Source: Comamonadaceae bacterium
GTDB lineage: Bacteria > Pseudomonadota > Gammaproteobacteria > Burkholderiales > Burkholderiaceae_C
Reading direction: 5' to 3'
DNA length: 64,000 bases
NCBI GenBank assembly: GCA_947442105.1
Contig: CANEVH010000004.1
Coordinates: forward strand, 1 to 64,000
The translations under genes were made by a program, and so were the position numbers. This document shows positions 10,243 through 27,007 of this stretch, one piece after another. Below the pieces are notes generated by a model. That model saw only the letters and a list, made by a program, of their open reading frames with translations, was not told where the DNA came from and did not search any database. Each line of letters opens with the position of its first letter. Position 1 is the stretch's first letter.

Positions 10243-13200
10243 ATGAAAATCAAAGAACTGTTCGTCAAACCCATTGACCGACCCATTAACGGAGTCGTCA
10301 AGGCCGACCAAATGGACGCCGCCAGTGTGTGGCAAGAGCTTGAAGAGTACGTCGTCACCGAAAAAATTAGGGAATACCTGCGCAAATTTTTCGACGCTTA
10401 CCTCGCAGCCATAGACCGGCCCAAAGATGCGGCTATTACCGACCGAATGGGCGTCTGGGTTTCGGGTTTTTTTGGTTCGGGCAAGTCTCACTTCATCAAA
10501 ATCCTGTCCTTCCTGCTGGAAAACATGGAAGCGACCAACCCTGCCACAGGGGAAAAGCGCCACGCAGCCCAGTTCTTTGACCACCAGAAAATCAAGGATG
10601 CGATGCTGCTTGCGGATGTGCACCGGGCTGTTTCTGGCACGGCAGACGTCATCTTGTTCAACATTGACGCCAAGGCCGACAGCAAAACCGACCGCGACGC
10701 GATTTTGCAAGTGTTCCAGCGGGTCTTTAATGAAAAGCTGGGCTACTCGGGCGACGCCCCCCACATTGCAGATATGGAGCGCTACCTCGTGGCCAAGGGC
10801 GCTTTTGACACCTTCAAAGCCGCCTTCACCCAATCGACTGGCAGCACCTGGGACAAAGAGCGAGACGCAGTGGACTTTATGCGTGATGACGTGGTGGTTG
10901 GCTTGGCCCAGGCCCTCAAGATGTCGCCAGAATCCGCAGGCAAATGGTTTGACAGTGCGCGCGACGACTACCGTGTGAACATTGAAGGCTTCGCCAAGGT
11001 AGTGAATGACTACCTCGCCACCAAGCCCAGCAGCCATAAAGTCATCTTTCTGGTCGATGAAGTGGGGCAATTCATTGGCGCCAATTCGCAGCTCATGCTC
11101 AGCTTGCAGACCATCACCGAGCAACTCGGCACCCAGTGCAAGGGCCGCGCCTGGGTCATCGTCACCAGCCAAGCTGACATTGATGCGGCGATCGGCGACG
11201 CCAATCTGTCCCGCAGTCAAGACTTTTCCAAGATTCAAGGGCGCTTTCACACCCGCCTGTCACTTGCCAGCAGCAATACGAACGAGGTCATCAGCGAACG
11301 CCTGCTCTCCAAGACGGAGGCCGCCCACGTGCTTTTGCGTGATGTCTTCGCCGGCAAGAGCGACGTCATCAACAACCAGCTCAGCTTTGTCAGCAACTCA
11401 GTCAACCTGCGAGGCTACAAAGACGCAGCCGAATTCGTTGCCTGCTACCCATTTGCACCCTACCAGTTCACCCTGCTGCAAAAGATATTCGAGTCCATCC
11501 GCAAAGTGGGTGCCACGGGCAAGCATTTGTCCCAAGGCGAGCGCTCCTTGCTTGATGCGTTCCAAGCCGCTGCCGTCAGCAATGCCCCAAAAAACACCGG
11601 CGTGCTGGTGCCCTTGTATGACTTCTACTCCTCCATTGAGAGCTTTATTGACGGCGCAGCCAAGCGCTCCATTGACCAGGCGCCGGAAAACCCCAGCCTG
11701 CAGCCGTATGACAGCCAGCTGCTCAAGGCCATGTTCCTTATTCGCTACATCCCCGACATCGTCAGGCCCAACATCGACAACCTGGCAACGCTGTGCATTG
11801 ACCAAATCGACGCGGACAAACTCGCCCTCAAACGCAAAATCCAGGAAAGCTTGGCCCGCCTGGAGCAGCAGCGCCTGGTCAGCCGCAATGGTGACCTGTG
11901 GTTCTTCCTCACGAATGAAGAACGCGACGTGGCCCGAGAAATTGGCCATGTCGAAGTGTCTGCAGCCGAAAAATCCCGCCTGCTGGCCGAGTTGATTTAC
12001 GACGAAATATTCAACAGTCAAACCAAGGTGCGCCACCGTGACACCAAGGCAGACTACGAGTTCAACCGCCTGCTGGACGGCGCACCGTGGCGCCAAGCAA
12101 ACCAGGCACTGAGCTTTGAGGTGCTGACGCCCTTGGGCGACGAATACGAAAAGCTGCAAAGCGCCAAATGCATTTTGCGCAGCAGCGAGGGCAATGGCCG
12201 CGCCATCGTGCGCCTGGCCGAGGGTGACCGCCTGGACATGGAGCTGGCCCTGTACCAGCAAATTGAAAAGTACATCGTCAGCCCCAAAGCCGACCAGGCG
12301 ACGCCTTCCCTTAAACGCATCTTGGCTGACCGCAAAGACGAAAACCGGGAACGCCGCCAGCGTTTGGTCTATCAACTGTCTGCACTGATCGCTCAGGGCG
12401 ATTTCTATGCATTGGGGCAAGCGGTGCAAATCAAGGCCGCAACTCCGGACAAAGTGCTGGACGAACTGCTCAACTACCTGGTGACCAATACCTACAGCAA
12501 GCTGCCTTATATCAAGGTGCGGCAGGCCGACCCCTTGGCTGAAATCAGGGCCGTACTCACTGCCGACAGTGTCGTCGCCTCTGGTCTTGGCTTGGGAGGT
12601 GAGGAGGGCAACGCGCTGGCCATGAAAGAGATGCGCGACTATTTGCACCTCGCGGCAAGCCAAACTCGCGTGCTGCTCTCAGACGTGGTGGATCGCTTTG
12701 CGGGCATTCCTTGGGGCTGGAAGCCTGAGTGGGAAACCGTGCTGTTGGTGGCTCGCCTGTTTATGGCCGGTGAGATCAAGCTTTTGCTGGAAGGTTCAGA
12801 CCTCGACCCCGACGCAGCCGTGGACGTGCTCACCAAAGCGGCTCGATTCAAGCAAGTGTCCATCCTCAAGCGCAAGACGGCGGATGCCAGCAGCCTTAAG
12901 CGTGCCCGCGAGCTCTACAAAGACCTGTTCCAGAAGCTGGGGCGTGAAGAAGAAGACGCTCTGGTGGCAGACTTCCGCGCTCGCTTGGGCGATTGGCAAA
13001 CGGAACTTAAAGGCTTCACCCTTACTGCCAGCACCGCGCACCACCCTGGCAAAGCGGCCACTGAGGCGGAGCTGGCCCGCATTGCGCAGCAGTTGGCAGT
13101 GCGTGACAGCTTTGCCTTTATTGAGGCCTTGCTGGGCGCCAAAGACGAGTGGTTGGACGCCGCAGAAGACATCCACGACCTGGTCAACTTCTACAAAACG

Positions 13201-13854
13201 CAAATATCGGCCTGGCGTAAGCTGCTAGACGGTTTGCGCGCCTTTGTGGACAACCGCGAAGCACTTGACAAAGTGCCCCAGGCTGCTGCAGCGCTCGCCG
13301 AGCTCATCCAGATTCGCGACAGCGCCAAACCGTATGGTTTGGTTAACCGCATTGAGCCCTTGCTGGCAACGGTCACCACCGTCAATGAGCAACTCGCACA
13401 AGAAAAACGCGAGCGCGCGCTGCTGTCCATTGACGAAAAAATTGCGGAAGTCCAGGCCAAGCTCACCGCCGTAGCTGCCACTTCAGACACCAGTAATAAA
13501 GCCCTGCGTGTGCTCCAAGACCTTAAAACCCGCCTTGCCAGCCAAACCAGCATTGCCCAAATCCTGTACCTGCAAGGGCAGGGCGGCGATGCGATGGATG
13601 AGGCCATGGCCTTGATAGAAGCTGCTGCTGCCACGCAGCCACAGGTAGCCCAGCCGGGCGACACTGTCAGACCGTTGCAAACCGGATCTGCCAACCTACA
13701 GCCGCCAGTCAAAACCACCAAGGTCATCCGCGCGGCGGAACTTTCCAGCAAAACCTACCTGGAGACGGAGGCCGATGTGGATGCCTATGTCCACAAACTC
13801 AGACAGGCCTTGCTCGCCACGGTGCGCGCTGGTGGGCTCGCCAGAATCCAGTAA
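10243..13854 (+). CDS. brxC: BREX ATPase BrxC (PglY-like)
   Basis: 1203 residues, normal for the family. N-terminus MKIKELFVKPIDRPINGVVK. Walker A GFFGSGKSH lies at residues 75-83 and Walker B VIFLVDEVGQF at about 267-277. A long helical C-terminal half follows. BrxC is the large AAA-type ATPase of type 1 BREX, essential for both host methylation and phage exclusion, and thought to work in a complex with BrxB, PglX and PglZ. An AbiE pair starts 54 bp after its stop, where pglX would usually follow. Confidence 0.95.
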   Translation: MKIKELFVKPIDRPINGVVKADQMDAASVWQELEEYVVTEKIREYLRKFFDAYLAAIDRPKDAAITDRMGVWVSGFFGSGKSHFIKILSFLLENMEATNPATGEKRHAAQFFDHQKIKDAMLLADVHRAVSGTADVILFNIDAKADSKTDRDAILQVFQRVFNEKLGYSGDAPHIADMERYLVAKGAFDTFKAAFTQSTGSTWDKERDAVDFMRDDVVVGLAQALKMSPESAGKWFDSARDDYRVNIEGFAKVVNDYLATKPSSHKVIFLVDEVGQFIGANSQLMLSLQTITEQLGTQCKGRAWVIVTSQADIDAAIGDANLSRSQDFSKIQGRFHTRLSLASSNTNEVISERLLSKTEAAHVLLRDVFAGKSDVINNQLSFVSNSVNLRGYKDAAEFVACYPFAPYQFTLLQKIFESIRKVGATGKHLSQGERSLLDAFQAAAVSNAPKNTGVLVPLYDFYSSIESFIDGAAKRSIDQAPENPSLQPYDSQLLKAMFLIRYIPDIVRPNIDNLATLCIDQIDADKLALKRKIQESLARLEQQRLVSRNGDLWFFLTNEERDVAREIGHVEVSAAEKSRLLAELIYDEIFNSQTKVRHRDTKADYEFNRLLDGAPWRQANQALSFEVLTPLGDEYEKLQSAKCILRSSEGNGRAIVRLAEGDRLDMELALYQQIEKYIVSPKADQATPSLKRILADRKDENRERRQRLVYQLSALIAQGDFYALGQAVQIKAATPDKVLDELLNYLVTNTYSKLPYIKVRQADPLAEIRAVLTADSVVASGLGLGGEEGNALAMKEMRDYLHLAASQTRVLLSDVVDRFAGIPWGWKPEWETVLLVARLFMAGEIKLLLEGSDLDPDAAVDVLTKAARFKQVSILKRKTADASSLKRARELYKDLFQKLGREEEDALVADFRARLGDWQTELKGFTLTASTAHHPGKAATEAELARIAQQLAVRDSFAFIEALLGAKDEWLDAAEDIHDLVNFYKTQISAWRKLLDGLRAFVDNREALDKVPQAAAALAELIQIRDSAKPYGLVNRIEPLLATVTTVNEQLAQEKRERALLSIDEKIAEVQAKLTAVAATSDTSNKALRVLQDLKTRLASQTSIAQILYLQGQGGDAMDEAMALIEAAAATQPQVAQPGDTVRPLQTGSANLQPPVKTTKVIRAAELSSKTYLETEADVDAYVHKLRQALLATVRAGGLARIQ

Positions 13855-13908
13855 GATTGCGAAAAGTATCGATAGAAGTTACACATTGCAATTCAACTGG
13901 ACAAAAGC

Positions 13909-14718
13909 GTGCAAAGCCCTCTAACGCAAGTTCTTGACGAAGCCGAGCGCCGAGGCAAGCTGAACCTGCGTACGGCGGACATTGCCCGAGCCTTGCCCGA
14001 CGTCAGTGCCGACGCACTGCGCCAGGCGCTGCACCGCCAGCAACAAAAAGGGCGCATCGTGCGCACTTCCCGTGGTTCAGCACACTGGTTGCTCGTTCCC
14101 CTGCAAGATGCCTCTGCAGGCGCGCCACCATTGGAGACCTGGTTGGACGCGTATTTGTCTAAATCGTTAGGTGTACCTTATTACGTCTGCTTGCTCAGCG
14201 CTGCCGAGGTTTATGGTGCGTCACCACAAGCGGTCATGGTCACCCAGGTGATGACTACCAAAGTGCGTCGGCCCGTGCAAGTGGGCCGACACCGTTTGGT
14301 GTTCCTGAAACACGCACGCACATCCGACATGCCCATCCGTTGGCACGAAACGCCGCAGGGCCGTTTCAAGATCAGCACGCCTGAGCTCACCGCGCTCGAC
14401 CTGGTGAGCCGTCAGCAGGCGACTGGTGGTATCGCCCGCATCATGGAAGTGCTCCAAAGCCTAGCCCCAGACATGTCCGAAGATGGTTTAAGCGCCGCAC
14501 TGGATGCTACGCAAGAAGTGCCCACTGCCCAACGACTGGGCGCGCTGCTGTCCCGGCTGCACCATGCTGCCCTGGCCAAGCGAGTGGCCGACTGGTTGGA
14601 CACTCGGCGCACCCGCCGAATTGCGCTCACATTGGACGCCGATACCGGAGCCGCCAGCACGCTAGACCCCCAATTCAAGGTCAGCATGCCCGATACCTTT
14701 CCTGTCGCCAACACCTGA
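13909..14718 (+). CDS. abiEi: AbiEi-family antitoxin (type IV toxin-antitoxin)
   Basis: 269 residues from GTG 13909. The N-terminal winged-helix (SPLTQVLDEAERRGKLNLRT...ALRQALHRQQQKGRI) resembles the AbiEi DNA-binding domain. The following domain, with LSAAEVYGASPQAVMVTQV and FKISTPELTALDLV, matches AbiEi antitoxins. In AbiE systems this protein represses the operon and counters the AbiEii nucleotidyltransferase. Its stop overlaps the AbiEii start by one base (TGATG). Confidence 0.85.
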   Translation: MQSPLTQVLDEAERRGKLNLRTADIARALPDVSADALRQALHRQQQKGRIVRTSRGSAHWLLVPLQDASAGAPPLETWLDAYLSKSLGVPYYVCLLSAAEVYGASPQAVMVTQVMTTKVRRPVQVGRHRLVFLKHARTSDMPIRWHETPQGRFKISTPELTALDLVSRQQATGGIARIMEVLQSLAPDMSEDGLSAALDATQEVPTAQRLGALLSRLHHAALAKRVADWLDTRRTRRIALTLDADTGAASTLDPQFKVSMPDTFPVANT

Positions 14719-15575
14719 TGCAATATACCCACCTCACGGCTTGGCAAGCCCACGCACTGTGGCCCAAGCGCAGCCAAATCGAGCAGGACCTGCGCCTCTC
14801 CAGAGGTGTGGCAGCCATTTTTGAAGACCAAGTACTGCGCCAACACCTGGCCATGCGTGGCGGCACCGTGCTGCACAAGGCCCACTTGGCCCCGGCCGCA
14901 CGGTACTCCGAAGACATTGACCTGGTGCTTACCAAGCCCATGGACACAGGCGTTCTTGAAAAGCACCTGCTGCGGGTGCTGACACCCATCCTCGGCGTGC
15001 CTGCGCCGTCCATCTTTCTGGATGCCTGGTTGGCACTGCGCAATGCCCGCAAGAGCTCCAAAATTTTGTCCATCAAGTTCAAATTCATTCCCTTGGGTCT
15101 GAGCCGGTTCGAGACCATCAAAGTCGATATCAATCTAAATGAGAACGCGGCGCTCTACCCCCTAGTGCAGGTGGGTTTTCAGAGTCTGGACGAAGACGGC
15201 GAGCTGGTCATGGCCCAGGCCGTCTCCTACGACATCAATGAAATGCTGGGCACCAAGACCCGTGCATTGATGCAACGCCAGCAAGGGCGCGATCTGTTTG
15301 ACCTGTGGTTTGCCTGGAGCCAGAGCCAGGCCGGCCTGACCCCATACACCGTGGACGGCCAACGCGCCATGCAAGCTTTTGAGTGGTACCTCGGTAACGA
15401 AGGCACAGCCATGGGGCGCGGTGAGGCCGGGCAGTTGCTGGACCAGCGCCTGCGCAACCAAGCGTTCCGCCTGGACATGGACACCTTGTTGCGCCCCGGC
15501 CTGCCCCGGTTTGATATCGATGCGGCCGCCACCGTAGTGCGCAACGCCTTCCTGGACCATCTGGCAGCGCCTTGA
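14718..15575 (+). CDS. abiEii: AbiEii/AbiGii-family nucleotidyltransferase toxin
   Basis: 285 residues. RGGTVLHKAHL followed by RYSEDIDLVLTK is the GG/GS...DxD signature of the DUF1814 nucleotidyltransferase toxins. SIKFKF and the KVDINLNE strand supply the later acidic residue, and TKTRALMQRQQGRDLFDLWF is the conserved C-terminal motif. Such toxins stop growth by modifying tRNA or similar substrates. Together with abiEi it is a complete two-gene module inserted between brxC and pglX in the BREX direction, so it is probably read with the operon. Confidence 0.87.
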   Translation: MQYTHLTAWQAHALWPKRSQIEQDLRLSRGVAAIFEDQVLRQHLAMRGGTVLHKAHLAPAARYSEDIDLVLTKPMDTGVLEKHLLRVLTPILGVPAPSIFLDAWLALRNARKSSKILSIKFKFIPLGLSRFETIKVDINLNENAALYPLVQVGFQSLDEDGELVMAQAVSYDINEMLGTKTRALMQRQQGRDLFDLWFAWSQSQAGLTPYTVDGQRAMQAFEWYLGNEGTAMGRGEAGQLLDQRLRNQAFRLDMDTLLRPGLPRFDIDAAATVVRNAFLDHLAAP

Positions 15576-15631
15576 CAGCCATCCAACCTGCTTCCCATTT
15601 TTCAGCCTCACCGCTGCATGCAAAGTCACCC

Positions 15632-18600
15632 ATGAACAAAGCCAACCTCAAGTCCTACGCCCCCCAGGCCCGCAGAGACTTCATTGCGGCTGTCACGGCT
15701 CGCGCCAACCAACTGGGCTTGTCAGTCAAGGCTGATTCACTGGAAGTTGCCCCCGCCCAAACGCAGGGCGACGTCACTGTCATTGCTGGCCAAGCCTGGC
15801 CATCTAAGGTCAGTGGCCAGCGCGACAAGCTGATAGAGCGCATCCGCAAAGACGGTTTCGAGCACACCATGGAAGCCGTGGCCTACACCTGGTTCAACCG
15901 CTTTGCCGCGTTGCGCTACATGGAGCTGCACGACTACCTGGGCCATGGCCACCGGGCGCTGTCCAGCACCTCCGGCGGGCTGCCAGACATCCTGACCCAT
16001 GCCACGGACCTGACCAACGAACTCCCAGGGCTGAACGCAGCCAAAGTCACCGAACTAAAGCTCGCTGGCAACCGCGATGGCGAGCTCTACCGCATGCTGC
16101 TGGTGGCCCAGTGCAACGCCTTGTCCCGCGCCATGCCCTTCTTGTTTGAGCGCATTGACGACGACTCCGAGCTGCTGCTGCCCGACAACCTGCTGCGCAG
16201 CGACTCCGTCATCGCCAAGCTGGTCGCAGAAATCCCGGAAGAGGACTGGGCCGAAGTCGAAATCATCGGCTGGCTGTACCAGTTCTACATCTCCGAGAAG
16301 AAGGACCAGGTCATTGGCAAGGTCGTCAAAAGTGAAGACATCCCTGCCGCCACCCAGCTCTTCACTCCCAACTGGATCGTGCAATACCTGGTGCAAAACA
16401 GCGTGGGCCGCCTGTGGCTCATGGCCAACCCGCAAAGCACACTTGCCAAAGAGTGGCCGTACTACATTAGCCCCGCCGAGCAAACGCCCGAGGTGCAAGC
16501 CCAGCTTGATTCCCTAATCCAGACCCGCGTGCTTGAAGATGGCGACACACTTAACCCCGAGTCCATCACCGTGCTGGACCCAGCCTGTGGCAGTGGCCAC
16601 ATTCTGGTGGTGGCCTATGACGTACTCAAGGCCATCTACCTGGAGCGTGGCTACCAGCCCAGAGCCATCCCGCGCCTGATACTGGAAAAGAACCTTTACG
16701 GCCTGGACATTGACGACCGTGCTGCCCAGATGGCCAGTTTTGCCCTGCTGATGAAAGCCCGAGCCGACGACCGCCGCCTGTTCACCGCCACGGATGATGC
16801 TGACAACTTGCAGCCGCCCAAGCTCAATGTGCTGAGCCTGCAAGAGAGCAAAGGCATGAGCGCGGACGAGCTTGCCACCCATCTGGCCCCGTTCAAGGTG
16901 CAGCGCGCCACCATCACCGCGCTGGTGGAAACCTTTGAACACGCCAAAACCTTTGGCTCGCTGATCCAGATCCCCTATACGCTCAAGACGCATCTGGCCG
17001 TGTTGCCTGATGTGTTGGCCTTGGTCAAGCAAAGTGGGGAGTTGTATGCCACTGCGGCTGCGGATGATTTGCTGCCGCTGGTGCAGCAGGCGCAGGTGCT
17101 GGCGATGCAGTTTGATGCGGTGGTGGCGAATCCGCCTTATATGGGTGGAAAGGGTATGAATCAGGCGCTCAAGGACAACGCCCGTGCCGTATTCCCAGAC
17201 AGTAAATCAGATTTGTTTGCCATGTTTATGGAGCGCGGCTTCGGGTGGTGCAAACCGACAGGCTTCAATAGCATGGTCACTATGCAGAGTTGGATGTTCC
17301 TGTCGTCCTATGACTCCATGCGAACGAAATTATTGACGGATCGGACGCTATCTTGCATGGTTCACATGGGTAATGGTGTTATGGGCATCGCCTTTGGAAC
17401 CGCTGCTACTGTTCTGATGAATTGCCACATTCATGACTATTCAGGAAGTTTTTCTTATTGTGAAAGCGATGATGTAAATGATGACGGAATACCAAAGTAT
17501 TTCCCTGTTTCGAACGAGCGACTGAAGAATGCCAAGCCAGATGACTTCAAGAAAATCTCAGGAAGTCCAATTGCATATTGGGTTACAGATGCATTGAGAA
17601 CTTGTTTCGAGAAAGGAAGTCCTATCGAAACTTTGGCTAAGCCACGACAAGGCATGGCCACAACAAATAATGCGCTTTTTCTACGTCTTTGGTCAGAAGT
17701 GGACAGAGGGAAAATGGGTTTGGATTTTGACTCCGAAGAAGACGCTGCATCAAGCAAGAAGAAATGGTTCCCTTACAACAAGGGTGGCGAATATAGGCGC
17801 TGGTACGGAAACAATTATTACGTTGTCAATTTTGAAAATTCCGGTAAAGCGATTTGTGAATACATTGACAACACACCTGGGGTAAAGGTTGGCTCCAACG
17901 GGCGTGTAATCAACAGAGAGTATTACTTCAAGCCAGGCATTACCTGGTCATTCGTTAGCTCTTCATATTTTGGAGTTCGACAGTCTGAAAAGGGATTCGT
18001 CTTTGATGTGGGTGGTTCCACTGCGTTCCCTGATAAAAAATACATCAACCTGTTCACTGGCTTGCTTTGTTCGAAGATAAGTACCATTTTTATGGCGACT
18101 TTGAACCCAACTTTGAATTTTCAAGTCGGAAATGTTGGATCCATTCCGGTGATCGACGGATTGGATGAAACTCATGGTCAGGCAGTTTCTGCGGTGGTCG
18201 CCGAAGCCGTTGGGGTTGCGAAAGCAGACTGGAACGATTTTGAAACCTCCTGGAATTTCACCGGCTTAGAACTTAAAGAGGGAAGTGCCACTTTGGTGGA
18301 ATGGTGGAGGTCCTTCGAGGCAAAGTCCCTCTCTAGATTGAAGCGAATGTCTGTTCTGGAGAGAGAAAACAACCGCATTTTCATTAACGCCTACGGCCTC
18401 CAAGACGAACTTACCCCCGAAGTCCCCGAATCCCAAATCACCCTGGCCCGTGCCGACCGCGAAAAAGACTGCCAGCGCCTGATCTCCTACGCCATTGGCT
18501 GCATGATGGGCCGCTACAGCCTCGATGAGCCCGGCCTGATCTATGCCCACGCGGGAAACGTCGGCTTCGAGCCTGGCCGCTACGCCACCTTTCCCGCAGA

Positions 18601-19225
18601 TGCCGACGGCATTGTCCCCATCACCGACGAACTCTGGTTTGCCGACGACGCACCCAGCCGCATCCGCGAATTCCTGCGTGCCGTTTGGGGGCCAGACACA
18701 CTTGAAGAAAACATGGCCTGGCTGGCCGAGAGCCTTGGCAAAAAATCGGCCAAAGAGGCGTCTGAGACCCCAGACGAAACCATCCGCCGCTACATCGCCG
18801 ACAAGTTCTTCAAAGACCACCTGCAAACCTACAAGAAGCGCCCCATCTACTGGCTCTTCAGCAGCGGCAAACAAGGCGCGTTCCAAGCACTGGTCTATCT
18901 GCATCGCTACACCGAAGGCACACTGGCCCGTCTGCGCGCCGAATACGTCGTGCCCCTCACCGGCAAGATCCAAAGCCGCATTGAGATGCTGCAAAAAGAC
19001 GCCGCAGCCGCCAGCAGCACCGCCGCGCGCAACAAGCTGGCTAAGGAAGTAGAAAAGCTCAAGAAGAAGCATGTAGAGCTACTGGCCTACGACGAACAAC
19101 TGCGCCACTACGCCGACATGCGTATCACCCTCGACTTGGATGATGGGGTGAAGGTGAACTATGGCAAGTTCGGGGATTTGGTGGCGGAGGTGAAAATGGT
19201 GACTGGCGAAAAGGACGAAGAATGA
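15632..19225 (+). CDS. pglX: BREX adenine-specific DNA methyltransferase PglX
   Basis: 1197 residues from ATG 15632 (MNKANLKSYAPQARRDFIAA, the usual family start); an upstream TTG at 15572 is unlikely. The SAM-binding motif VLDPACGSGH is at residues 314-323 and the catalytic NPPY at 500-503. PglX methylates a non-palindromic site on host DNA and sets BREX specificity. Bases about 17440-18380, after NPPY, are clearly AT-richer than either flank. That is the target-recognition region, so it may have been exchanged. The stop overlaps the next ATG by 4 bp (ATGA). Confidence 0.95.
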   Translation: MNKANLKSYAPQARRDFIAAVTARANQLGLSVKADSLEVAPAQTQGDVTVIAGQAWPSKVSGQRDKLIERIRKDGFEHTMEAVAYTWFNRFAALRYMELHDYLGHGHRALSSTSGGLPDILTHATDLTNELPGLNAAKVTELKLAGNRDGELYRMLLVAQCNALSRAMPFLFERIDDDSELLLPDNLLRSDSVIAKLVAEIPEEDWAEVEIIGWLYQFYISEKKDQVIGKVVKSEDIPAATQLFTPNWIVQYLVQNSVGRLWLMANPQSTLAKEWPYYISPAEQTPEVQAQLDSLIQTRVLEDGDTLNPESITVLDPACGSGHILVVAYDVLKAIYLERGYQPRAIPRLILEKNLYGLDIDDRAAQMASFALLMKARADDRRLFTATDDADNLQPPKLNVLSLQESKGMSADELATHLAPFKVQRATITALVETFEHAKTFGSLIQIPYTLKTHLAVLPDVLALVKQSGELYATAAADDLLPLVQQAQVLAMQFDAVVANPPYMGGKGMNQALKDNARAVFPDSKSDLFAMFMERGFGWCKPTGFNSMVTMQSWMFLSSYDSMRTKLLTDRTLSCMVHMGNGVMGIAFGTAATVLMNCHIHDYSGSFSYCESDDVNDDGIPKYFPVSNERLKNAKPDDFKKISGSPIAYWVTDALRTCFEKGSPIETLAKPRQGMATTNNALFLRLWSEVDRGKMGLDFDSEEDAASSKKKWFPYNKGGEYRRWYGNNYYVVNFENSGKAICEYIDNTPGVKVGSNGRVINREYYFKPGITWSFVSSSYFGVRQSEKGFVFDVGGSTAFPDKKYINLFTGLLCSKISTIFMATLNPTLNFQVGNVGSIPVIDGLDETHGQAVSAVVAEAVGVAKADWNDFETSWNFTGLELKEGSATLVEWWRSFEAKSLSRLKRMSVLERENNRIFINAYGLQDELTPEVPESQITLARADREKDCQRLISYAIGCMMGRYSLDEPGLIYAHAGNVGFEPGRYATFPADADGIVPITDELWFADDAPSRIREFLRAVWGPDTLEENMAWLAESLGKKSAKEASETPDETIRRYIADKFFKDHLQTYKKRPIYWLFSSGKQGAFQALVYLHRYTEGTLARLRAEYVVPLTGKIQSRIEMLQKDAAAASSTAARNKLAKEVEKLKKKHVELLAYDEQLRHYADMRITLDLDDGVKVNYGKFGDLVAEVKMVTGEKDEE

Positions 19226-20277
19226 AAATCAAAGCCATATATTTTGACGATGTCGGCCCATTGGGGTCGCAGAGCATCGACCTGCTAAATGACTGGGATG
19301 ACCAAATTGAGTCACGCACCTTACTGTCCGGCCCCAATGGCTGCGGCAAATCTACAGTACTTCGTACCGTGGCGATGCTTTGGGATGCTTTGGGTTACTG
19401 GCTTGATCAGCGCAAGGCCTTACCTAAAACCAGCGTTGCGCGCGAATGGCTGCAACGTTGGGGCGGTTGCGCAGTGGTGTTGACGGATGCCCCAACTCAC
19501 GGCAAGGTAGTGGGACTCATATTCGGTGACTTGACTTGGTGCGGGGCTATGCGTGCCAAACATGCTGACGTGGCTTGGCTCGGCGAAGGTGTAGCGCGCA
19601 CAGGCAAGCCGGGCAACCCCAAACGCGAGGTCTTTATGCCTTCGGAGGCTTGGGTCACGGCATGGTCGGATGCGCGGAAAAAGATGATCTTGTCTTTTGA
19701 CAAGGTTGATGTGCCAAATGTCGTTTTCTTAGATGCAGAAGAGCGCCGCTGGGTGGCTGCACGTCGTAACGTGGGTGAGCACTCCGCCGAGTTGCCAGGC
19801 CGAAGGTGGTTGCCCAAATACCAGGCCAGTGAAGACTGGAAGGATCAGCTGGAAGCCTCTCTCATTACGCTCAAGACGACGCAGTTGCACAAGTACCATG
19901 AAGTCATTCGCCTACTAAACACCTTTTTGTCAGGCAAAGAAATCGACCCGGATATTCAACCGGGTGAAAGTCGCCTGCGGGTGAAACTCAAAGGAAAACG
20001 CGGCCAATCGCATGGCCTAGACGACCTGAGCGCTGGTGAGCATCAAGTGCTGATATTGCTGTATTTGTTGGCACGCTGGGCAGAGCCGGGAGCTGTGGTG
20101 TTGATTGACGAACCAGACCTCTATTTGCATCCATCGTTGGTCAATGGTTTGCTGTCCAGCCTCGAGAAGCTGGTGACAGATATTGGCGGGCAACTGATGA
20201 TCACGTCACACCAACCCGACATTTGGCAGCGTTACGAGGCATCGGGTAAGCGAATTGAGTTGGGGGCCAATCAATGA
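19222..20277 (+). CDS. ariA: PARIS AriA-like AAA/ABC-type ATPase
   Basis: 351 residues. Walker A SGPNGCGKST lies at 36-45. The signature DLSAGEHQVLILLYLLARW and Walker B VVLIDEPDLYLHPS follow near 270-300, then the switch ITSHQPDIW. This is an OLD/SMC-like ATPase with a helical insert between the halves and no nuclease domain of its own. The adjacent gene encodes a DUF4435 TOPRIM-like protein, the pairing seen in PARIS (AriA + AriB). ATGA overlaps on both sides link it to pglX and to its partner. Another split OLD-type defence pair is the main alternative. Confidence 0.72.
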   Translation: MKIKAIYFDDVGPLGSQSIDLLNDWDDQIESRTLLSGPNGCGKSTVLRTVAMLWDALGYWLDQRKALPKTSVAREWLQRWGGCAVVLTDAPTHGKVVGLIFGDLTWCGAMRAKHADVAWLGEGVARTGKPGNPKREVFMPSEAWVTAWSDARKKMILSFDKVDVPNVVFLDAEERRWVAARRNVGEHSAELPGRRWLPKYQASEDWKDQLEASLITLKTTQLHKYHEVIRLLNTFLSGKEIDPDIQPGESRLRVKLKGKRGQSHGLDDLSAGEHQVLILLYLLARWAEPGAVVLIDEPDLYLHPSLVNGLLSSLEKLVTDIGGQLMITSHQPDIWQRYEASGKRIELGANQ

Positions 20278-21116
20278 GTACGCTGGAAGAACGTATCGAG
20301 CAGATAAAAACCCAATTCATAGGCAAGACTGATTTACGTGTGTTGCTGGTTGAGGGGCCTGATGACGTCGATGCCTATCGCATTTTCCTAGATCGCAAGT
20401 TTCCTGAGTGGGAGAAAGCATGGTTATCGACTTGGGCGGGCAACAAGGCTGATGTGGTCAGAATGCTTAAGAAGGAGCCCAATTGGATTGGCTTGGTGGA
20501 CCGTGATGAGTGGACTGAGGCTGAAATTGCAGACCAGAAGGTCGATTGTGCAAATTTGATCGTCTCACCACGGTTCTGCGTTGAGAGCTATCTGATTGAT
20601 CCAGCCGAACTATGGGCTGCATTCCCAGACAAACAGCGAAAGAAAATTTTAGGCGGTGAAGTCCAGTTTCGTAACGAGGTAATGGCAACGCAGACGGAGT
20701 GGATTCGACACGCAGCCCTTTGGCACGGCGTGCGCCCTTTATGGCGACAGCTTCGCAGCCTAGGTTTTCCTAATTCAGTATTGGAGAATCCCCCTATGCC
20801 TGATGACGAAGCTTTGCGCGCAAAGTTTGCAGAGTGGCATGTGACGCTAGACGCAGATGCTATTTTGGCTGCTGTGCATACATTGGAGGCAAAGTTGAGT
20901 GCGGAAGAAGATAGCAAGCTATGCGCACAGTGGTTACATGCAAAAAGCTTTTACCCGCAAGTAGTGCACCAAACTTTGAATCGACTTTTGGGGCAAAAAC
21001 CAGCCAGAGAACGGCGATTGGCTATCTTGCGGACGCGGTCCGTTCCCGACGACTTGGTACCTGTATGGCAAGCCATGGGGTTGGCTGTCCCCCGTTACCG
21101 CAATGACAAACCGTGA
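20274..21116 (+). CDS. ariB: PARIS AriB-like DUF4435 (TOPRIM-like) effector
   Basis: 280 residues. LLVEGPDDVDAYRIFL supplies the acidic residue of a TOPRIM-like fold (Glu27), IGLVDRDEW gives the DxD motif, and LIVSPRFCVESYLIDP completes a DUF4435 core. In characterised PARIS, AriB is held by the AriA ATPase and released when a phage anti-restriction protein such as Ocr is sensed, then cleaves tRNA. That activity is inferred here from family and pairing only. The start overlaps the ATPase stop by 4 bp. Confidence 0.72.
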   Translation: MSTLEERIEQIKTQFIGKTDLRVLLVEGPDDVDAYRIFLDRKFPEWEKAWLSTWAGNKADVVRMLKKEPNWIGLVDRDEWTEAEIADQKVDCANLIVSPRFCVESYLIDPAELWAAFPDKQRKKILGGEVQFRNEVMATQTEWIRHAALWHGVRPLWRQLRSLGFPNSVLENPPMPDDEALRAKFAEWHVTLDADAILAAVHTLEAKLSAEEDSKLCAQWLHAKSFYPQVVHQTLNRLLGQKPARERRLAILRTRSVPDDLVPVWQAMGLAVPRYRNDKP

Positions 21117-21570
21117 GGTGCTTCAGCCCAATTTGCTGGCCGAATACCAGGAGTCGCGACAGATCATCAAGCAGCGCATAGCCTCGGTGCGCATGCGCAT
21201 GGGGTTGGCGGCCAGCCGTGAATTGATTTTGTTTTACTGGGTTCTGGGTGAGATGATTTCCCAGGAGCAGGTCCAAAGTCAGTGGGGGGACAAGTTGATT
21301 GCCCAGTTGTCGGGCGACTTGCAAAAAGCATTTCCTGGCATTAAGGGCCGCTCTGCGGCCAACGTGAAGTATTGCCTTCGCTTTTTCCAGTTCTACCGAA
21401 CGGAATCAATTGGTCAACAGACTGTTGACCAATTGCCGTAGGGCCACAACATCCAGATTTTCACCAAGTGCGAAAGCGTCGCCGAAGCCCGTTTCAATGG
21501 CTATGTCGACATGCGACGCCGGACGAGCGGGGGACGTTTAGCAACTGCTTCCTTTAGATGGCTATTTCAA
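21103..21570 (+). pseudogene. DUF1016 (YhcG-like) nuclease gene, broken by a nonsense codon and truncated
   Basis: The ATG at 21103 overlaps the end of the AriB-like gene by 14 bp. The frame gives a good DUF1016 N-terminal domain (LLAEYQESRQIIKQRI, FYWVLGEMISQEQ, GIKGRSAANVKYCLRFFQFY). It then reaches TAG at 21439-21441 where the family normally reads LPWGHN: TGG has become TAG, and GHNIQIFTKCESVAEARF continues in frame after the stop. The PDDEXK nuclease half is missing entirely and pglZ begins at 21586. A decayed insertion. Confidence 0.82.
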
Positions 21571-21585
21571 TGCAGAAAATAAATC

Positions 21586-24201
21586 ATGAGTAACGCAAGA
21601 ATTACAGACAGCCTAAGTGCATTGTTTGCTAACCACCCCATTGTTTTTTGGCATGACGTAGAAGCTGAGTTTTCAGGGTTTGTGGATTCCATAGGCATCG
21701 AAGGCGTTCAGCTCATTCGGATGGATGAGCAATCGAATCTTCGGATCAAGTTGCAAATTGAAGGCGCTCCCAGTCAGCGTTGGCTTTTGTATAGCAACCA
21801 GCCCGAACCTGAGCCAAGCAAGGACTGGCTGCTCGACGTGCGCATGCGCAGCAAGTCATTCAGGGCTGATGCGAACTCAATATTGCTGGAGGACCTGGCG
21901 CTAACAACGTTGACTCTGCGCAACCATCTGAAAGACCGGTCCAAGTTTTTGCGTGCCAAAGACCGGGTTGAGCGCCTTAGGCGCTTCGTGCTTCCTGGAG
22001 ACACGGCGCAAGATCTAGACCGAAAGATGATTGCTGTCCTATGCCGGGCTGACCAGCCAGAGCTGTTCTCAGTCTTGCAGAAAGTGTACGGCGCCATGGT
22101 TTTGGATGGTGCTGCAGACCTAAGCACGCCGCCCAAAGCTTGGCAAGAGATCGAGTCCAACGACTTGGCACCCGCGTTTTGGGCGCTCGTGCATTCGCAA
22201 TTGGGCTATTCAGATCCAACGCCTCATTTGCGGGATCTGCTGGTGCGCATACTTGTCACCGATTTTTGCCGGGGATTGACCGGCGACGCCCCACGCCAGT
22301 TTGCGCACTTTGTACTGCCCGACCGCACCCTGGCGGCAAATGCATCGGTATTTGTTGGACGATGGCGCTCGGACATTGCGCAGTTTGCCAATTACAACGT
22401 TTTGGCGTCGGCCGTTGCCCATGAGCTGGATTTGGTAACCGTTTTGTCGGGCCTGTCTGCAGAGCAGCTCGCCGACTGCATGACTTTTGAGGACGTGGAG
22501 TTGCGCCTGGTTCAGGACATCAAGTCGCGCATCGTGGTGGGTGCCGGGGCGAATATGGACATGGTCCGCAGCCTGATTGCGCGCCGCCGCGATGGGCACT
22601 GGGCCAACGCCCTGATGGCCAGTGCCAGCGAGCGTACCAGCGCCTTGGCTGCTTGCTATGACGCTTTGACTGCCGCCGCCGACTTCTTTAGCCTGAAAGC
22701 TACCCATGCGGCAGGATTTAGTTTTTCCTCCGCAGAGGGCGCCTTTTTGCAGTACCGGGACGAACTGTTCCAGTTTGACCAGTTGTACCGACACTTTCAC
22801 ACCGCCGCCGATGTGGTTGAACCAACCGGCTGGGCAGTACTGCACGAACTGCGCGGCTCGATTGAGGGGCTCTACTCTGGATGGTTCATTCCACACCTGA
22901 GTACCGCATGGTCAAAAGTGGTGGAGGGTCCAGACGGCCTGTTGAGCCATTGGTCGCTGCCCTCTGTGGCCGGCCAGCAAGATTTTTACCAACGCAAAGT
23001 CCAGCCCTTGTTTGGCGGCGCCGTCAAACGGGTGTTTGTGGTGATTTCAGATGCGATGCGATTTGAAGTGGCGCAGGAACTGGTTCAGTACACCAATCGG
23101 AAGAGCCGTTTTAAGGCATCAATCGACACGATGCTGGGGGTGCTGCCGAGTTACACCGCCCTGGGTATGGCGGCATTGTTGCCGCACAAGACCTTGGCCT
23201 ACAAAGAGGGCGCAAACCTGGACGTGTTGGCTGACGCTCGCCTGGTGGCCACGCTGGACCAGCGCAACGAATGTCTCAAGAATTTTGGTGGCATAGCGAT
23301 TAAGGCGGAAGACTTGATCGCCATGGGCAAAGACAAAGGGCGAGATCTGGTGCGCGATCAGCAATTGGTCTACGTCTACCACGACCGCATAGACATGATT
23401 GGCGACAAACAGGCGTCAGAGACCAAAACATTCGAAGCCGCCGCCAAGACGGTGCAGGAGCTTTCCAGCCTGCTGGGTTTTATCGTTCACTCCCTTAATG
23501 GGTCAACGATCTTGGTTACCGCCGACCACGGCTTTATGTACCAGGAGTCCGCCATGGACGCGGCGGACAAGGCGACGCTTGACGACAAGCCCGCCGGTAC
23601 CTTGGTTGCGAAGAAGCGTTACCTGATTGGCCGTGACCTTGGAGCAACACCAAAGGCTTGGTCAGGAAACACCAGCGTCACAGCAGGCACGAGCCCCGAT
23701 GGAAGTATGGATTTTTGGGTTCCAAAGGGTGCAAGCCGCTTTCACTTTGCCGGTGGCGCCCGTTTTGTACACGGAAGCGCAATGCCGCAAGAGGTGGTGG
23801 TGCCCGTCGTAACGGTGCGGGTCAGCGACGCCGAGGCCGCCAAGACAAAGTTTGTCAGCATTACCCTGCTTGGGGTCGTCAACAAAGTCGTGACCAATCG
23901 GCAGCGGTTTGAGTTCATACAAAATGACGTGGTGTCGGAGCGGGTACTGGCGCGATCAGTATCCGTGGCACTGCGTGATGTGTCTGACAACGACAAGGCA
24001 ATCAGCGACGTCCAGTCAGTCACTTTTGACAGTACGTCGCAACTGTTGGACGAGCGTAAGCGGTCGGTGTTCCTCACCGTTTTGGCGGGCGCGCACGATC
24101 CCCACAAGTCCTACAACTTGGTAATGTGGGATGCGGCGACCAAAGTGGAAATACTGCGCCTGCCAGTCAAAGTAGATCTTGCCTTTAGTAACGATTTTTG
24201 A
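21586..24201 (+). CDS. pglZ: BREX phosphatase-superfamily protein PglZ
   Basis: 871 residues. The N-terminal region has PIVFWHDVEAEFSGFVDSIG, typical of type 1 PglZ. The alkaline-phosphatase-superfamily core has a metal-binding Asp in VVISDAMRFEVAQEL (about residues 485-499) and TADHGFMY (645-652). The C-terminal region ends in a beta-rich tail. PglZ is the marker protein of BREX and is needed for both methylation and restriction. It is separated from pglX here by the PARIS-like pair and the dead DUF1016 gene. brxL follows with almost no gap. Confidence 0.95.
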   Translation: MSNARITDSLSALFANHPIVFWHDVEAEFSGFVDSIGIEGVQLIRMDEQSNLRIKLQIEGAPSQRWLLYSNQPEPEPSKDWLLDVRMRSKSFRADANSILLEDLALTTLTLRNHLKDRSKFLRAKDRVERLRRFVLPGDTAQDLDRKMIAVLCRADQPELFSVLQKVYGAMVLDGAADLSTPPKAWQEIESNDLAPAFWALVHSQLGYSDPTPHLRDLLVRILVTDFCRGLTGDAPRQFAHFVLPDRTLAANASVFVGRWRSDIAQFANYNVLASAVAHELDLVTVLSGLSAEQLADCMTFEDVELRLVQDIKSRIVVGAGANMDMVRSLIARRRDGHWANALMASASERTSALAACYDALTAAADFFSLKATHAAGFSFSSAEGAFLQYRDELFQFDQLYRHFHTAADVVEPTGWAVLHELRGSIEGLYSGWFIPHLSTAWSKVVEGPDGLLSHWSLPSVAGQQDFYQRKVQPLFGGAVKRVFVVISDAMRFEVAQELVQYTNRKSRFKASIDTMLGVLPSYTALGMAALLPHKTLAYKEGANLDVLADARLVATLDQRNECLKNFGGIAIKAEDLIAMGKDKGRDLVRDQQLVYVYHDRIDMIGDKQASETKTFEAAAKTVQELSSLLGFIVHSLNGSTILVTADHGFMYQESAMDAADKATLDDKPAGTLVAKKRYLIGRDLGATPKAWSGNTSVTAGTSPDGSMDFWVPKGASRFHFAGGARFVHGSAMPQEVVVPVVTVRVSDAEAAKTKFVSITLLGVVNKVVTNRQRFEFIQNDVVSERVLARSVSVALRDVSDNDKAISDVQSVTFDSTSQLLDERKRSVFLTVLAGAHDPHKSYNLVMWDAATKVEILRLPVKVDLAFSNDF

Positions 24202-24209
24202 GTTATTTA

Positions 24210-26261
24210 ATGACAACCAACATCAGCACACCAGTCGAAGAGCCCGTGGACACAGGACTGGATGACTTGCTCAACACGCACTTTGCGGGGAAGGTCGTTC
24301 GCAAAGACTTGACCAAGCTGATCAAGGAGGGGGCCAATGTTCCCGTCTATGTGTTGGAGTACCTGCTGGGCATGTACTGCGCAAGCAACGATGAGGCGGT
24401 TATCCAAAGTGGACTGGTCAATGTCAAGCGCATCCTGACGGAAAACTACGTGCGTCCTGACGAGGCAGAAAAGGTGAAGTCCAAGGTGCGCGAAAGCGGA
24501 ACGTACAAAGTCATCGACAAAGTGACGGTCAAGCTCAACGAAAAGCGCGATGTTTATGAGGCCTTGTTGTCCAACCTAGGGGTCAAGAACGCCGAAGTAT
24601 CTGACAGCTATGTGCGGCAGTTCGAGAAGCTGCTGGTGGGCGGTATCTGGTGCATCGTCACACTGAAATACCATTTCGAGGAAGACCAGAAGGGCTCACC
24701 CTTCACGGTGACAGAGCTCAAACCCATCCAGATGCCCAATATGGACATGGCGGCCTTGTTCGAAGCCCGCAAGGCCTTTACCGACGAGCAATGGATTGAT
24801 GCCTTGATTCGATCTACGGGTATGGAGCCCAGCCAATTCAAGGAGCGCGTGAAGTGGCACCTTTTGGCACGCATGGTGCCGCTGGTAGAAAACAACTACA
24901 ACTTCTGTGAATTGGGCCCGCGCGGCACGGGCAAGAGCCACATCTACAAGGAAATCAGCCCCAACAGCATTTTGGTATCGGGTGGGCAGACCACAGTGGC
25001 CAACTTGTTCTACAACATGGGCGCACGCAAGGTGGGCTTGGTCGGCTTATGGGACGTCGTGGCGTTTGACGAGGTGGCTGGCATCAACTTCAAAGACCAT
25101 GACGGCGTCCAAATCATGAAGGACTACATGGCCTCGGGATCGTTCAGCCGAGGCCGCGAGTCCATCAACGCCAGCGCAGCGATGGTGTTTGTCGGCAACA
25201 TCAACCAAAGCGTCGAGTCCTTGGTAAAAACCTCGCACCTTTTGGCGCCGTTCCCCGAGGCGATGATTGATTCGGCCTTTTTTGACCGCTTTCATGCCTA
25301 CGTACCTGGTTGGGAAATTCCCAAGATGCGGCCTGAATTTTTCACGAACCAGTATGGTCTGATCGTTGATTACCTGGCCGAGTACCTGCGTGAAATGCGC
25401 AAACAGAGTTTTGCGGACGCCATAGACAAGTGGTTCAAGCTGGGCAACAACCTGAACCAACGTGACACTATCGCGGTACGCAGAACCACGTCTGGGCTGC
25501 TAAAGCTGGTATGCCCTCACGGGCTGTACACCAAGGAATCAGTTCGCAGGTGCCTTGAATATGCGCTTGAAGCCCGTAGACGGGTAAAGGAGCAGCTCAA
25601 GAAAATTGGCGGAATGGAGTTTTATGACGTCCATTTCAGCTACATCGACCTCGAGGATGGCGTCGAGCGCTTTGTGACGGTGCCCGAACAATCAAGTGGC
25701 GCCCTGGTGCCCGAAGGCCGCTTGGCTCCCGGAACCTTGCACACGATCAGCATGGGTAGCGCTGAAATGCCCGGAATCTACCGGCTGGAGATTCAGTCCA
25801 TTCCGGGCACAGGCAAAGCGAATGTTTCAGGCCTGGCCCCACGCGAGGCTGTTCGAGTGGCCTTTGACTATTTCAAAGCCAACTCTTCACGGGTAAGCGC
25901 GGCCATCAAACCCGGCGAGCGAGACTTCCACACGCACCTGGTTGAGCTACAAAACAGTGGGACGCCGCAGGCATTCACGCTGGTAAGTTTCATCGCATTC
26001 TGTTCTGCGGCCCTGGCTAAGCCTGTGCAGTCACAACTGGCGGTGATGGGCGACATGAGCCTGGGTGGCACGGTGATTCAGGTGCGAAACCTGGCCGAGT
26101 GCATGCAAGTGGCGTTTGACGCCGGCGCCAAGCGGATTTTGTTGCCAATGTCCAGTGTTACGGACATACCCACCGTGCCAGGTGAGCTGTTCGCGAAATT
26201 CCAGACAAGCTTTTACTCTGATCCAGTGGACGCGGTTTTCAAGGCGCTTGGTGTGGAATAG
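24210..26261 (+). CDS. brxL: BREX AAA+ protein BrxL (Lon-like)
   Basis: 683 residues from ATG 24210, 8 bp after the pglZ stop; a TTG at 24198 overlapping pglZ is less likely. Walker A GPRGTGKSH is at 236-244 and Walker B VVAFDEVAG at 283-291. The C-terminal Lon-protease-like fold (LVSFIAFCSAALA, GDMSLGGTVIQVRNLAE, GAKRILLP) lacks the Lon catalytic-serine motif, as in other BrxL proteins, which form DNA-encircling AAA+ rings. BrxL is needed for phage exclusion but not for host methylation in type 1 BREX. Last gene of the operon. Confidence 0.95.
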   Translation: MTTNISTPVEEPVDTGLDDLLNTHFAGKVVRKDLTKLIKEGANVPVYVLEYLLGMYCASNDEAVIQSGLVNVKRILTENYVRPDEAEKVKSKVRESGTYKVIDKVTVKLNEKRDVYEALLSNLGVKNAEVSDSYVRQFEKLLVGGIWCIVTLKYHFEEDQKGSPFTVTELKPIQMPNMDMAALFEARKAFTDEQWIDALIRSTGMEPSQFKERVKWHLLARMVPLVENNYNFCELGPRGTGKSHIYKEISPNSILVSGGQTTVANLFYNMGARKVGLVGLWDVVAFDEVAGINFKDHDGVQIMKDYMASGSFSRGRESINASAAMVFVGNINQSVESLVKTSHLLAPFPEAMIDSAFFDRFHAYVPGWEIPKMRPEFFTNQYGLIVDYLAEYLREMRKQSFADAIDKWFKLGNNLNQRDTIAVRRTTSGLLKLVCPHGLYTKESVRRCLEYALEARRRVKEQLKKIGGMEFYDVHFSYIDLEDGVERFVTVPEQSSGALVPEGRLAPGTLHTISMGSAEMPGIYRLEIQSIPGTGKANVSGLAPREAVRVAFDYFKANSSRVSAAIKPGERDFHTHLVELQNSGTPQAFTLVSFIAFCSAALAKPVQSQLAVMGDMSLGGTVIQVRNLAECMQVAFDAGAKRILLPMSSVTDIPTVPGELFAKFQTSFYSDPVDAVFKALGVE

Positions 26262-26296: not shown

Positions 26297-26848
26297 TCAG
26301 CCCGTGGTTAATGGCGTCCAGTGGTGTGGCAGCAGTTCATCAATGCGACTGTTCTTCTGCGTCGGCAAGCGCTCCAACACGTCCTTGAGATAGGCATACG
26401 GGTCGTGCCCGTTGAGCTTGGCGCTTTGGATCAGGCTCATCACCGCTGCGGCCCGCTGGCCAGCGCGCAGTGAGCCCGCAAACAACCAATTGTTCCTGCC
26501 GATGGCAACCGGACGAATCTGGTTCTCTATCCAGTTGTTGTCAATCGGCAGTCGCCCATCTTCCACAAACCGCGTCAGTGCCACCCAGCGCCTCAAACTG
26601 TAGTCCAGCGCCTTGGCTGTGGCCCCTCCATCGCTGACGCGTTGGCGCTGCAACAGCATCCACTGGTGCAAGGCATCAAGCAGCGGCTTTGACTTCTCTG
26701 TGCGCATACGCGCGCGCGCATCGACACTGAGGGTTTTTGCCACCCGCTCAATCTCATACAACTGCCCGATATAGATCGGCGCTTGCTGGGCGAGCGTCGC
26801 TCGATATGGTGCATGGTGTTCATCACGCACACTATCTTTGCTTGTCAA
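26297..26848 (-). mobile_element. IS66-family transposase (TnpC), 3' fragment
   Basis: About 180 codons matching the C-terminal part of IS66 TnpC: FGQ-like APIYIGQLYEIERVAK, LDALHQWMLLQRQRVSDG, AKALDYSLRRWVALTRF, DGRLPIDNNWIENQIRP (carrying the catalytic Glu), RNNWLFAGSLRAGQRAAAV and HDPYAYLKDVLERLP. The first two thirds, including the two catalytic Asp, and the tnpA/tnpB genes are absent. It faces brxL, 35 bp from the brxL stop, at the right edge of the island. Its N-terminal break lies next to the flagellin C terminator. Confidence 0.9.
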
Positions 26849-26949: not shown

Positions 26950-27007
26950 CCACTGGCGCTTACTTCAGGAGCGCCAGCACGCTTTGGGGTTGCTGGTTGG
27001 CCTGTGC
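26950..27007 (-). repeat. right copy of the 58-bp direct repeat (end of flagellin C)
   Basis: Identical to 8252-8309. It holds the last 15 codons and stop of the intact flagellin C gene plus 10 bp of its 3' leader. The two copies are 18,698 bp apart, in the same orientation, and enclose the whole BREX/AbiE/PARIS-like island. Confidence 0.93.

Follow-up and report, generated by a model that had tools for sequence, protein, structure and literature searches.

Introduction

In the phage anti-restriction-induced system (PARIS) of Escherichia coli P4-like satellites the gene for an ATP-binding cassette (ABC) ATPase, AriA, is followed by the gene for a TOPRIM nuclease, AriB. Canonical PARIS is triggered by the phage protein Ocr and functions without type I restriction-modification or bacteriophage exclusion (BREX) (Rousset, 2022, PMC9122126); its biochemistry is taken here from two further studies (PMC12409363; PMC11455837). 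Ocr also inhibits BREX, which it does by binding to PglX (Went, 2024, PMC11341690). A pair of this type has been published from within BREX itself, in the BREX islands of Salmonella Typhimurium LT2 and D23580 (STM4493/STM4494; StySA; the "PARIS" of BREXSty). Here we describe a 64,000-nucleotide stretch of a Comamonadaceae genome (assembly GCA_947442105.1, contig CANEVH010000004.1, positions 1 to 64,000), called the window throughout, which carries an intact AriA/AriB-like module that belongs, as its sequence shows, to one lineage with the Salmonella pair and occupies the same operon and the same slot between pglX and pglZ. The arrangement is real and known in kind, the same lineage having been published in Salmonella BREX.

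Associations of this class occur across BREX types as overcoming lysogenization defect (OLD)-ABC/TOPRIM "backup effectors" (Rakesh and Krishnan, 2026, PMC12839542), and the portion of that paper drawn on here does not single out the lineage of the window. Of some 2000 pglX-pglZ regions in which a system was recognised, 2.21% had PARIS homologues (Went, 2024, PMC11341690), and the pair-in-BREX arrangement is uncommon but established. The idea that such a pair serves as an anti-BREX trap is likewise in print already (Went, 2024, PMC11341690; Rakesh and Krishnan, 2026, PMC12839542). The tags STM4493/STM4494 are used for the Salmonella pair with the gene order unassigned, as the sources disagree: STM4493 is given as the ATPase and STM4494 as the DUF4435 protein in one paper (PMC9009780), and the record notes of the Salmonella Infantis copy (locus L022) cite STM4493 for ariB and STM4492 for pglZ. 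What is added here is the distribution of the lineage, its branching in common with pglZ-brxL and the scars of pglX ends; the pair in the BREX slot and the trap idea are not new in kind.

An AriA/AriB-like pair within a type 1 BREX operon

By PADLOC and Pfam, positions 8982-26261 of the window form a type 1 BREX operon, with every gene on the plus strand and brxA, brxB, brxC, pglX, pglZ and brxL present in that order by PADLOC. AbiEi and AbiEii genes are interposed between brxC and pglX, and the ariA-like gene, the ariB-like gene and a DUF1016 fragment between pglX and pglZ:

8982-9605, plus strand, brxA (PADLOC BrxA 1.1e-87)
9587-10192, plus strand, brxB (PADLOC BrxB 1.1e-70)
10243-13854, plus strand, brxC (PADLOC BrxC 1504.6 bits)
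13909-14718, plus strand, AbiEi antitoxin gene in the brxC-pglX gap (Pfam AbiEi_1 1.1e-24; PADLOC AbiEi 2.7e-70)
14718-15575, plus strand, AbiEii toxin gene in the brxC-pglX gap (Pfam AbiEii 2e-23; PADLOC AbiEii 2.9e-75)
15572-19225, plus strand, pglX (PADLOC PglX 1551.9 bits, residues 21-1208)
19222-20277, plus strand, ariA-like OLD/ABC ATPase gene (PADLOC, Pfam, solved-structure match)
20274-21116, plus strand, ariB-like TOPRIM nuclease gene (PADLOC AriB 3.5e-13)
21103-21441, plus strand, N-terminal DUF1016 fragment left from a further cargo gene (Pfam DUF1016_N 2.2e-19)
21586-24201, plus strand, pglZ (PADLOC PglZ 1063.3 bits)
24198-26261, plus strand, brxL (PADLOC BrxL 1146.5 bits)

The pglX open reading frame (ORF) opens with TTG and its profile match begins at residue 21, which places the likely start at about 15632. 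The ariA-like and ariB-like ORFs both start with ATG and encode 351 and 280 residues, respectively. An earlier reading of the letters and ORFs alone (the sequence-only reading) had stated that the ATPase gene overlaps pglX by 4 bp and the second gene overlaps the ATPase gene by 4 bp, and the ORF coordinates agree. Because of these overlaps the pair is probably transcribed with BREX. The same reading had placed an AriA/AriB-like pair inside the BREX operon, which the PADLOC matches and the position between pglX and pglZ bear out.

Both proteins match PARIS profiles, and no different split OLD-type family scores better. For the ATPase the best PADLOC models are the AriAB fusion (1.8e-25) and AriA (1.7e-18), ahead of mad3, PtuA and AbiLi, and its Pfam scores of 58.9 bits for AAA_21 and 49.9 bits for AAA_15, both above cut-off, exceed those by which the published PARIS rule recognises the ATPase (AAA_15 at least 32 bits or AAA_21 at least 27 bits; Rousset, 2022, PMC9122126). 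Among solved structures it comes closest to AriA (8ux9, E 1.9e-9), with residues 229-339 as the strongest stretch. The second protein matches PADLOC AriB (PDLC02983, E 3.5e-13, 48.2 bits) and, weakly, the AriAB model, so that the pair has the AriA and AriB profile matches by which PADLOC defines PARIS. AbiL, Gabija and Septu contain ATPases of the same superfamily (AbiLi 8.6e-13, PtuA 5.8e-14, GajA 6.6e-10), but the scores of the window ATPase with these are below those with the AriAB model and with the best of the AriA models, and the nuclease gene matches AriB and AriAB models only. AbiL was considered as an identity and rejected, the second gene having no AbiLii match at E up to 0.01.

The motifs expected of a PARIS pair are present in both proteins. 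In the ATPase these are Walker A (GPNGCGKST, 37-45), the signature (LSAGE, 269-273), Walker B (VVLIDEPD, 292-299) and the H-loop (SH, 329-330), and their positions are kept, with single substitutions, in a 13-row AriA alignment. AriB has the TOPRIM glutamate E27 in VEG and the DxD residues D76 and D78 in VDRD, with E104 and Y106; all five are invariant in 12/12 rows of alignment A5, which leaves out the AriB of locus L023, the C-terminal part of which is not alignable. The motif names are those we take to apply to these ATPase and TOPRIM positions. In E. coli AriB the residue mutated in TOPRIM is E26 (PMC12409363).

Relation to the Salmonella pair and to canonical PARIS

The Salmonella pair, represented by the S. 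Infantis copy L022, matches that of the window over the full length (AriA 45% and AriB 41% identical) and sits likewise in the pglX-pglZ gap of a type 1 BREX; unlike the window, L022 is without the AbiE pair and without the DUF1016 fragment. The Salmonella-type BREX-embedded pair is hereby extended to betaproteobacterial loci.

The distance to canonical PARIS is much larger. AriA of the window is 16-22% identical to that of six PARIS-type plasmid pairs (six of eight regions were used; L045, with the partner gene outside the stretch, and L047, with the ATPase beside cas genes, were dropped), and in the AriA tree the 13 family members and the six PARIS-type proteins split at 100/100, on long branches. 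The solved AriA chain has 464 residues against 351 in the window. A pair close to it, L041, comes from a search in which 76 records matched and is among the 20 matches listed; its AriA is 68.6% identical to solved AriA over a 108-residue query stretch. Solved AriA is presumably the Ocr-sensing AriA. Compared as profiles, AriA of the window and of L041 align over 122 C-terminal columns only, the ATPase block, and full-length similarity to this pair close to solved PARIS was not found. The trigger is therefore not transferable by homology, and "PARIS" is, as far as the sequences go, a loose label for the window pair.

Distribution and genomic context of the lineage

The family as counted here has 13 members with both genes, the window included; L017 (genome G430), distant and with AriB matched only in part, L021 (G1348), a weak match without BREX hits, and L040 (G1521) were left out. 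The ariA and ariB genes are adjacent in all 13. As the 12 relatives, with AriA 45-90% and AriB 31-75% identical to the window proteins (the lowest AriB value being that of the short L023), keep both genes side by side, adjacency is not due to chance.

At the search sensitivity used the lineage is rare. With AriB alignment A2 as query and the window's own genome included, matches were obtained in 2/399 genomes of the order and 2/399 of the family, in 3/369 of the class (one partial) and 4/398 of the phylum (one weak), and in 2/74 and 2/117 genomes of the families of G1257 and G088, respectively. The AriB search gave four loci among genome contigs and one phage record, the plasmid collection one record with this AriB and AriA, and the window's own genome one match to this AriB and one to PglZ. 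Among E. coli genomes 1/5426 was matched by Oceanisphaera DNA, over 13% of the query. The viral contigs contained no AriB relative, and their 14 AriA loci are all distant (22-35% identity). The match in the phage collection, AFYI01000007.1 (L022), is a 501-kb contig of a Salmonella whole-genome shotgun project, and a phage-borne copy is therefore not evidenced.

The pair is usually, not always, linked to BREX: 10/13 members are BREX-linked, one (L005) sits by a BREX relic and two (L016 and L020) are BREX-free, so that the pair can exist without BREX. It lies between pglX and pglZ in the window and in L002, L003, L004, L006, L015, L018, L022 and L023, the hosts comprising Salmonella, E. coli R18, Oceanisphaera and betaproteobacterial records. 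No BREX gene was hit in the 20.8 kb of L005, where a decayed pglX 3' end (8794-8915) lies right in front of ariA; a BREX operon is therefore the probable origin of this pair. L016 and L020, the latter a 5.3-kb contig, have an AAA protein and Omp85, or efflux-pump genes, as neighbours. A PglZ model matched 6/9 genomes searched and found nothing in G636 (99% complete), G1388 (57% complete) and G1606, the genome of L005. The BREX-free occurrences, one of them in a genome listed as 99% complete in which PglZ went unmatched, fit a self-sufficient module. A single BREX-linked AriA clade was considered and finds no support: the label needs four changes on the tree (shuffled mean 6.6; as low in 21/500), and BREX-linked L019 has BREX-free L020 as its sister.

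Some loci depart from the common layout. In L019 the pair lies between two parts of pglX: PglX is split in 5945-12972 over two ORFs, which correspond roughly to residues 21-627 and 654-1214 of window PglX, with a Schlafen gene and ariAB in between, and the split resembles separate modification and specificity subunits. In E. coli R18 (L023:15030-15731) the same BREX-embedded pair has a shorter AriB, the C-terminal part of which does not align. L040:1378-3424 has pglZ, brxL and an ariB match starting at residue 19, with no ariA found, beside a long opposite-strand ORF that by eye resembles a transposase; it is probably a decaying locus.

Evolutionary history of the pair and of the BREX genes

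Among five near loci ariA and ariB differ at 0.49-0.77 of fourfold sites in 16/20 comparisons and at 0.30-0.38 in the other four, and since these sites have diverged while the proteins remain 58-97% identical, the protein sequences are under selection. Between the window and L003 the fourfold differences are 0.54 for ariA, 0.64 for ariB, 0.59 for pglZ, 0.56 for brxL and 0.32 for pglX, and between the window and L018 0.73, 0.71, 0.72, 0.71 and 0.38, respectively. The low value of pglX is not universal, as in L003 versus L004 it is 0.29, hardly below ariA (0.30) and ariB (0.31). Comparing window PglX with L002, L003, L004 and L018, residues 601-900 are 24-45% identical per 100-residue block and blocks in 1-500 and 1001-1217 are 69-98% identical, except for one of 52%, which suggests that the putative specificity part has been exchanged by recombination in conserved arms.

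For nine BREX loci (L019 left out, as its stretch lacks pglZ and brxL hits) the unrooted trees of AriA and of PglZ+BrxL branch identically, with 3/6 and 4/6 inner branches strongly supported, respectively. Pairwise identities of the operon genes also correlate (r 0.84-0.98), which shared ancestry alone explains. Separate ariAB sources for Oceanisphaera and the enterics were considered and are not shown: an AriA+AriB tree that keeps the three gammaproteobacterial loci together is only 1.41 log units worse (approximately unbiased test, p 0.242), and the nine-locus trees agree. A partnership of long standing in every locus is opposed by the enteric values, Salmonella and E. coli R18 being 91% identical in BrxL and only 56% in AriA and 36% in AriB, compared with 92%, 77% and 60% for the window and L018; the lack of the pair in E. 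coli HS BREX and the proposal that Typhimurium acquired it later (PMC9009780) point the same way, and in the enterics the pair looks younger or replaced. As the lineage shares the history of pglZ-brxL in betaproteobacterial loci, it is well suited to the question of what a BREX-linked AriA detects.

Cargo genes and additional pglX 3' ends

Both gaps of the operon hold varying cargo. In the one between brxC and pglX the window has AbiEi/AbiEii, L003 a RES protein, L018 HipA, Oceanisphaera a PDC-M25AB pair and Polaromonas JS666 plasmid 1 Xre-RES. Salmonella, E. coli R18 and L019 have no gene there, and in L004, where brxC is outside the stretch examined, pglX is preceded by an LRV-repeat gene. 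In some loci the pglX-pglZ gap holds DUF1016, PDC-M25A-like, DUF1963, Schlafen or LRV genes besides ariAB, and on Polaromonas JS666 plasmid 1 it holds a NERD/helicase gene and no annotated ariAB. The complete DUF1016 (YhcG-type nuclease) gene of L002 sits between pglX and ariA, the window remnant between ariB and pglZ; DNA similarity of the remnant extends to about 21494. The AbiE pair of the window (13909-15575) is a type IV toxin-antitoxin inside the BREX operon. AbiE and BREX occupy different hotspots in an SXT/R391 element (PMC7251087), "abie" is absent from the main text of PMC12839542, and no report of AbiE inside BREX was among the literature matches listed, which does not prove that there is none.

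Additional 3' ends of pglX accompany this cargo. L002 has three, namely in pglX, after the DUF1016 gene (7238-7376) and after the PDC-M25A-like ATPase gene (8703-8798), the last upstream of ariA, and L003 (8168-8279) and L004 (8185-8252) have one extra each; none was found in the examined stretches of the window, L006, L015, L018, L022, L023 and L054. The copies suggest, as scars, recombination at the pglX end, and may indicate how BREX operons collect second-line systems. No title or abstract opening among the literature matches listed concerned such copies beside cargo, which leaves their absence from the literature unproven. Taken overall, sorting of the tails by downstream cargo finds no support (2507/5000 shuffles as high); sorting by locus does better (174/5000 as high) and fits duplication within a locus. 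Individual pairs do agree with cargo: copy 2 of L002 with the following gene start matches the L004 pglX end and following DNA over 107 bp at 90.7%, the L003 and L004 scars are 90% alike, and the L005 relic is 76-78% like the window and L018 and 47-65% like the others.

Possible function of the pair

Taking the evidence together, we consider it rather likely that the window encodes a PARIS-like abortive-infection pair that is co-expressed with BREX and works like PARIS as a second, suicidal layer. By analogy with characterised PARIS, AriB, the TOPRIM nuclease, would be held back by the ABC ATPase AriA until a phage product bound to AriA and freed it; AriB would then cleave host RNA, probably tRNA, and arrest growth, whereby BREX-positive cells would gain their second layer; read together with pglX, the pair would be made whenever BREX is made. 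Such a release is our best conjecture, since the components and their active sites are there. The reading as a whole is further supported by the two 4-bp overlaps, the position of relatives between pglX and pglZ, the branching that AriA shares with PglZ+BrxL, and the divergence of ariA and ariB at fourfold sites, which is like that of pglZ and brxL against both L003 and L018.

Several observations weigh against this reading. The published rule asks of the partner a Pfam DUF4435 (PF14491) score of at least 27 bits (Rousset, 2022, PMC9122126) and AriB of the window reaches 14.8 bits; at E up to 1, DUF4435 matches 5/6 members of alignment A2, at best with 2e-7. This AriB is 9-16% identical to the AriBs of the six PARIS-type plasmid pairs, aligns with the L041 AriB profile over 29 TOPRIM columns only, at a probability of 10%, and has no credible match among solved structures. 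AlphaFold models built on five rows (window, L002-L005), with a mean predicted local distance difference test score of 50.9 for AriB and 37.0 for AriA, are unusable. By sequence the pair is thus PARIS-like but a separate lineage, its AriB missing one published defining feature. Moreover, the Salmonella pair was inactive against every phage tested, with either ariA or ariB deleted, defence against TB34 rose ten-fold by plating and did not change in liquid culture, and with both deleted the plating of BB1 fell massively (Went, 2024, PMC11341690).

As to what sets the pair off, the sequence-only reading proposed a trap in which AriA senses Ocr or another DNA-mimic BREX inhibitor and fires when a phage disarms BREX. 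The response of canonical PARIS to Ocr, the binding of Ocr to PglX and the published versions of the idea cited above speak for it, as does the AriA branching shared with pglZ-brxL. However, Ocr and its SP6 homologue Gp5 block the BREX of Salmonella D23580 and failed to activate the related pair (Went, 2024, PMC11341690), two members persist without BREX neighbours, and AriA outside its C-terminal ATPase block is not alignable with near-solved AriA. Ocr itself, the trigger originally envisaged, is probably not the trigger here, and a trap of this kind is possible but rather unlikely. The negative result with Ocr and Gp5, no PARIS-dependent defence, was obtained in E. coli with a pglX-deletion construct retaining ariAB (Went, 2024, PMC11341690) and disfavours, for that host and these two proteins, both an Ocr trap and a simple guard of PglX. 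The guard, in which AriA would monitor PglX or the BREX complex and fire when it is missing or sequestered, would agree with the 4-bp coupling to pglX and with the pglX deletion being unrecoverable in three Salmonella contexts, where toxicity was considered (PMC9009780); as pglX is also the part of the operon with signs of exchange, we regard it as very improbable.

It is quite conceivable, if short of probable, that the module is hitchhiking, sensing something unrelated to BREX and using the pglX-pglZ gap as a tolerant, well-expressed cargo slot. The other genes found in that gap, the extra pglX 3' ends beside cargo, the BREX-free members and the proposal that the pair is a later acquisition of Typhimurium BREX (PMC9009780) all point this way, but branching identical to that of PglZ+BrxL in nine loci is more than a passing guest would show. 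The shared branching, together with the TB34 and BB1 effects of the Salmonella deletions, would also suit a role of the pair as accessory effector or brake within BREX, and not as a system of its own. Against this, methylation is independent of either gene in Salmonella (PMC9009780; Went, 2024, PMC11341690), E. coli HS BREX is without the pair though about 80% DNA-identical to LT2 BREX (PMC9009780), few pglX-pglZ regions contain PARIS homologues at all, and BREX-free members exist; we consider such a role improbable. Beyond the PARIS-like reading preferred here, it is tempting to speculate, tentatively, that a BREX-adapted AriAB lineage with its own trigger has long stayed beside pglZ-brxL, that the pglX 3' end serves as a recombination arm for stacking or swapping defence modules, and that the BREX operon is a cassette platform which carries second-line suicide systems, the gap between brxC and pglX taking toxin-antitoxin pairs and that between pglX and pglZ nuclease modules. 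Against the cassette part, a pglX tail is closer to the other tails of its own locus than to those that precede the same cargo.

Other features of the island

Outside the operon genes the following features were recorded:

8252-8309, no strand, left copy of a 58-bp perfect direct repeat (equal to the flagellin gene 3' end)
8497-8964, plus strand, fragment of a WYL/WCX regulator (BrxR-like; Pfam WYL, WCX), N-terminal half not seen
26950-27007, no strand, right copy of the 58-bp repeat, at the 3' end of the flagellin gene 26960-27799 (minus strand)

The stop-to-stop frame of the regulator fragment, the only frame on which profiles were run, opens only at 8455, and this regulator upstream of brxA, near the left edge of the island, seems to be without its N-terminal half; BREX regulation may be altered through its shortening. 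Scans gave five promoter-like sites (shuffled mean 8.0) and 26 terminator-like sites (shuffled mean 23.6), and Rfam at gathering thresholds had no match in 7000-28000. An IS66 transposase fragment lies directly after brxL (26297-26848). The 58-bp repeats bracket the BREX island between the flagellin gene 26960-27799 and a DNA-similar gene at 7121-7969 (minus strand), and the arrangement looks as if the island had been inserted at the end of a flagellin gene.

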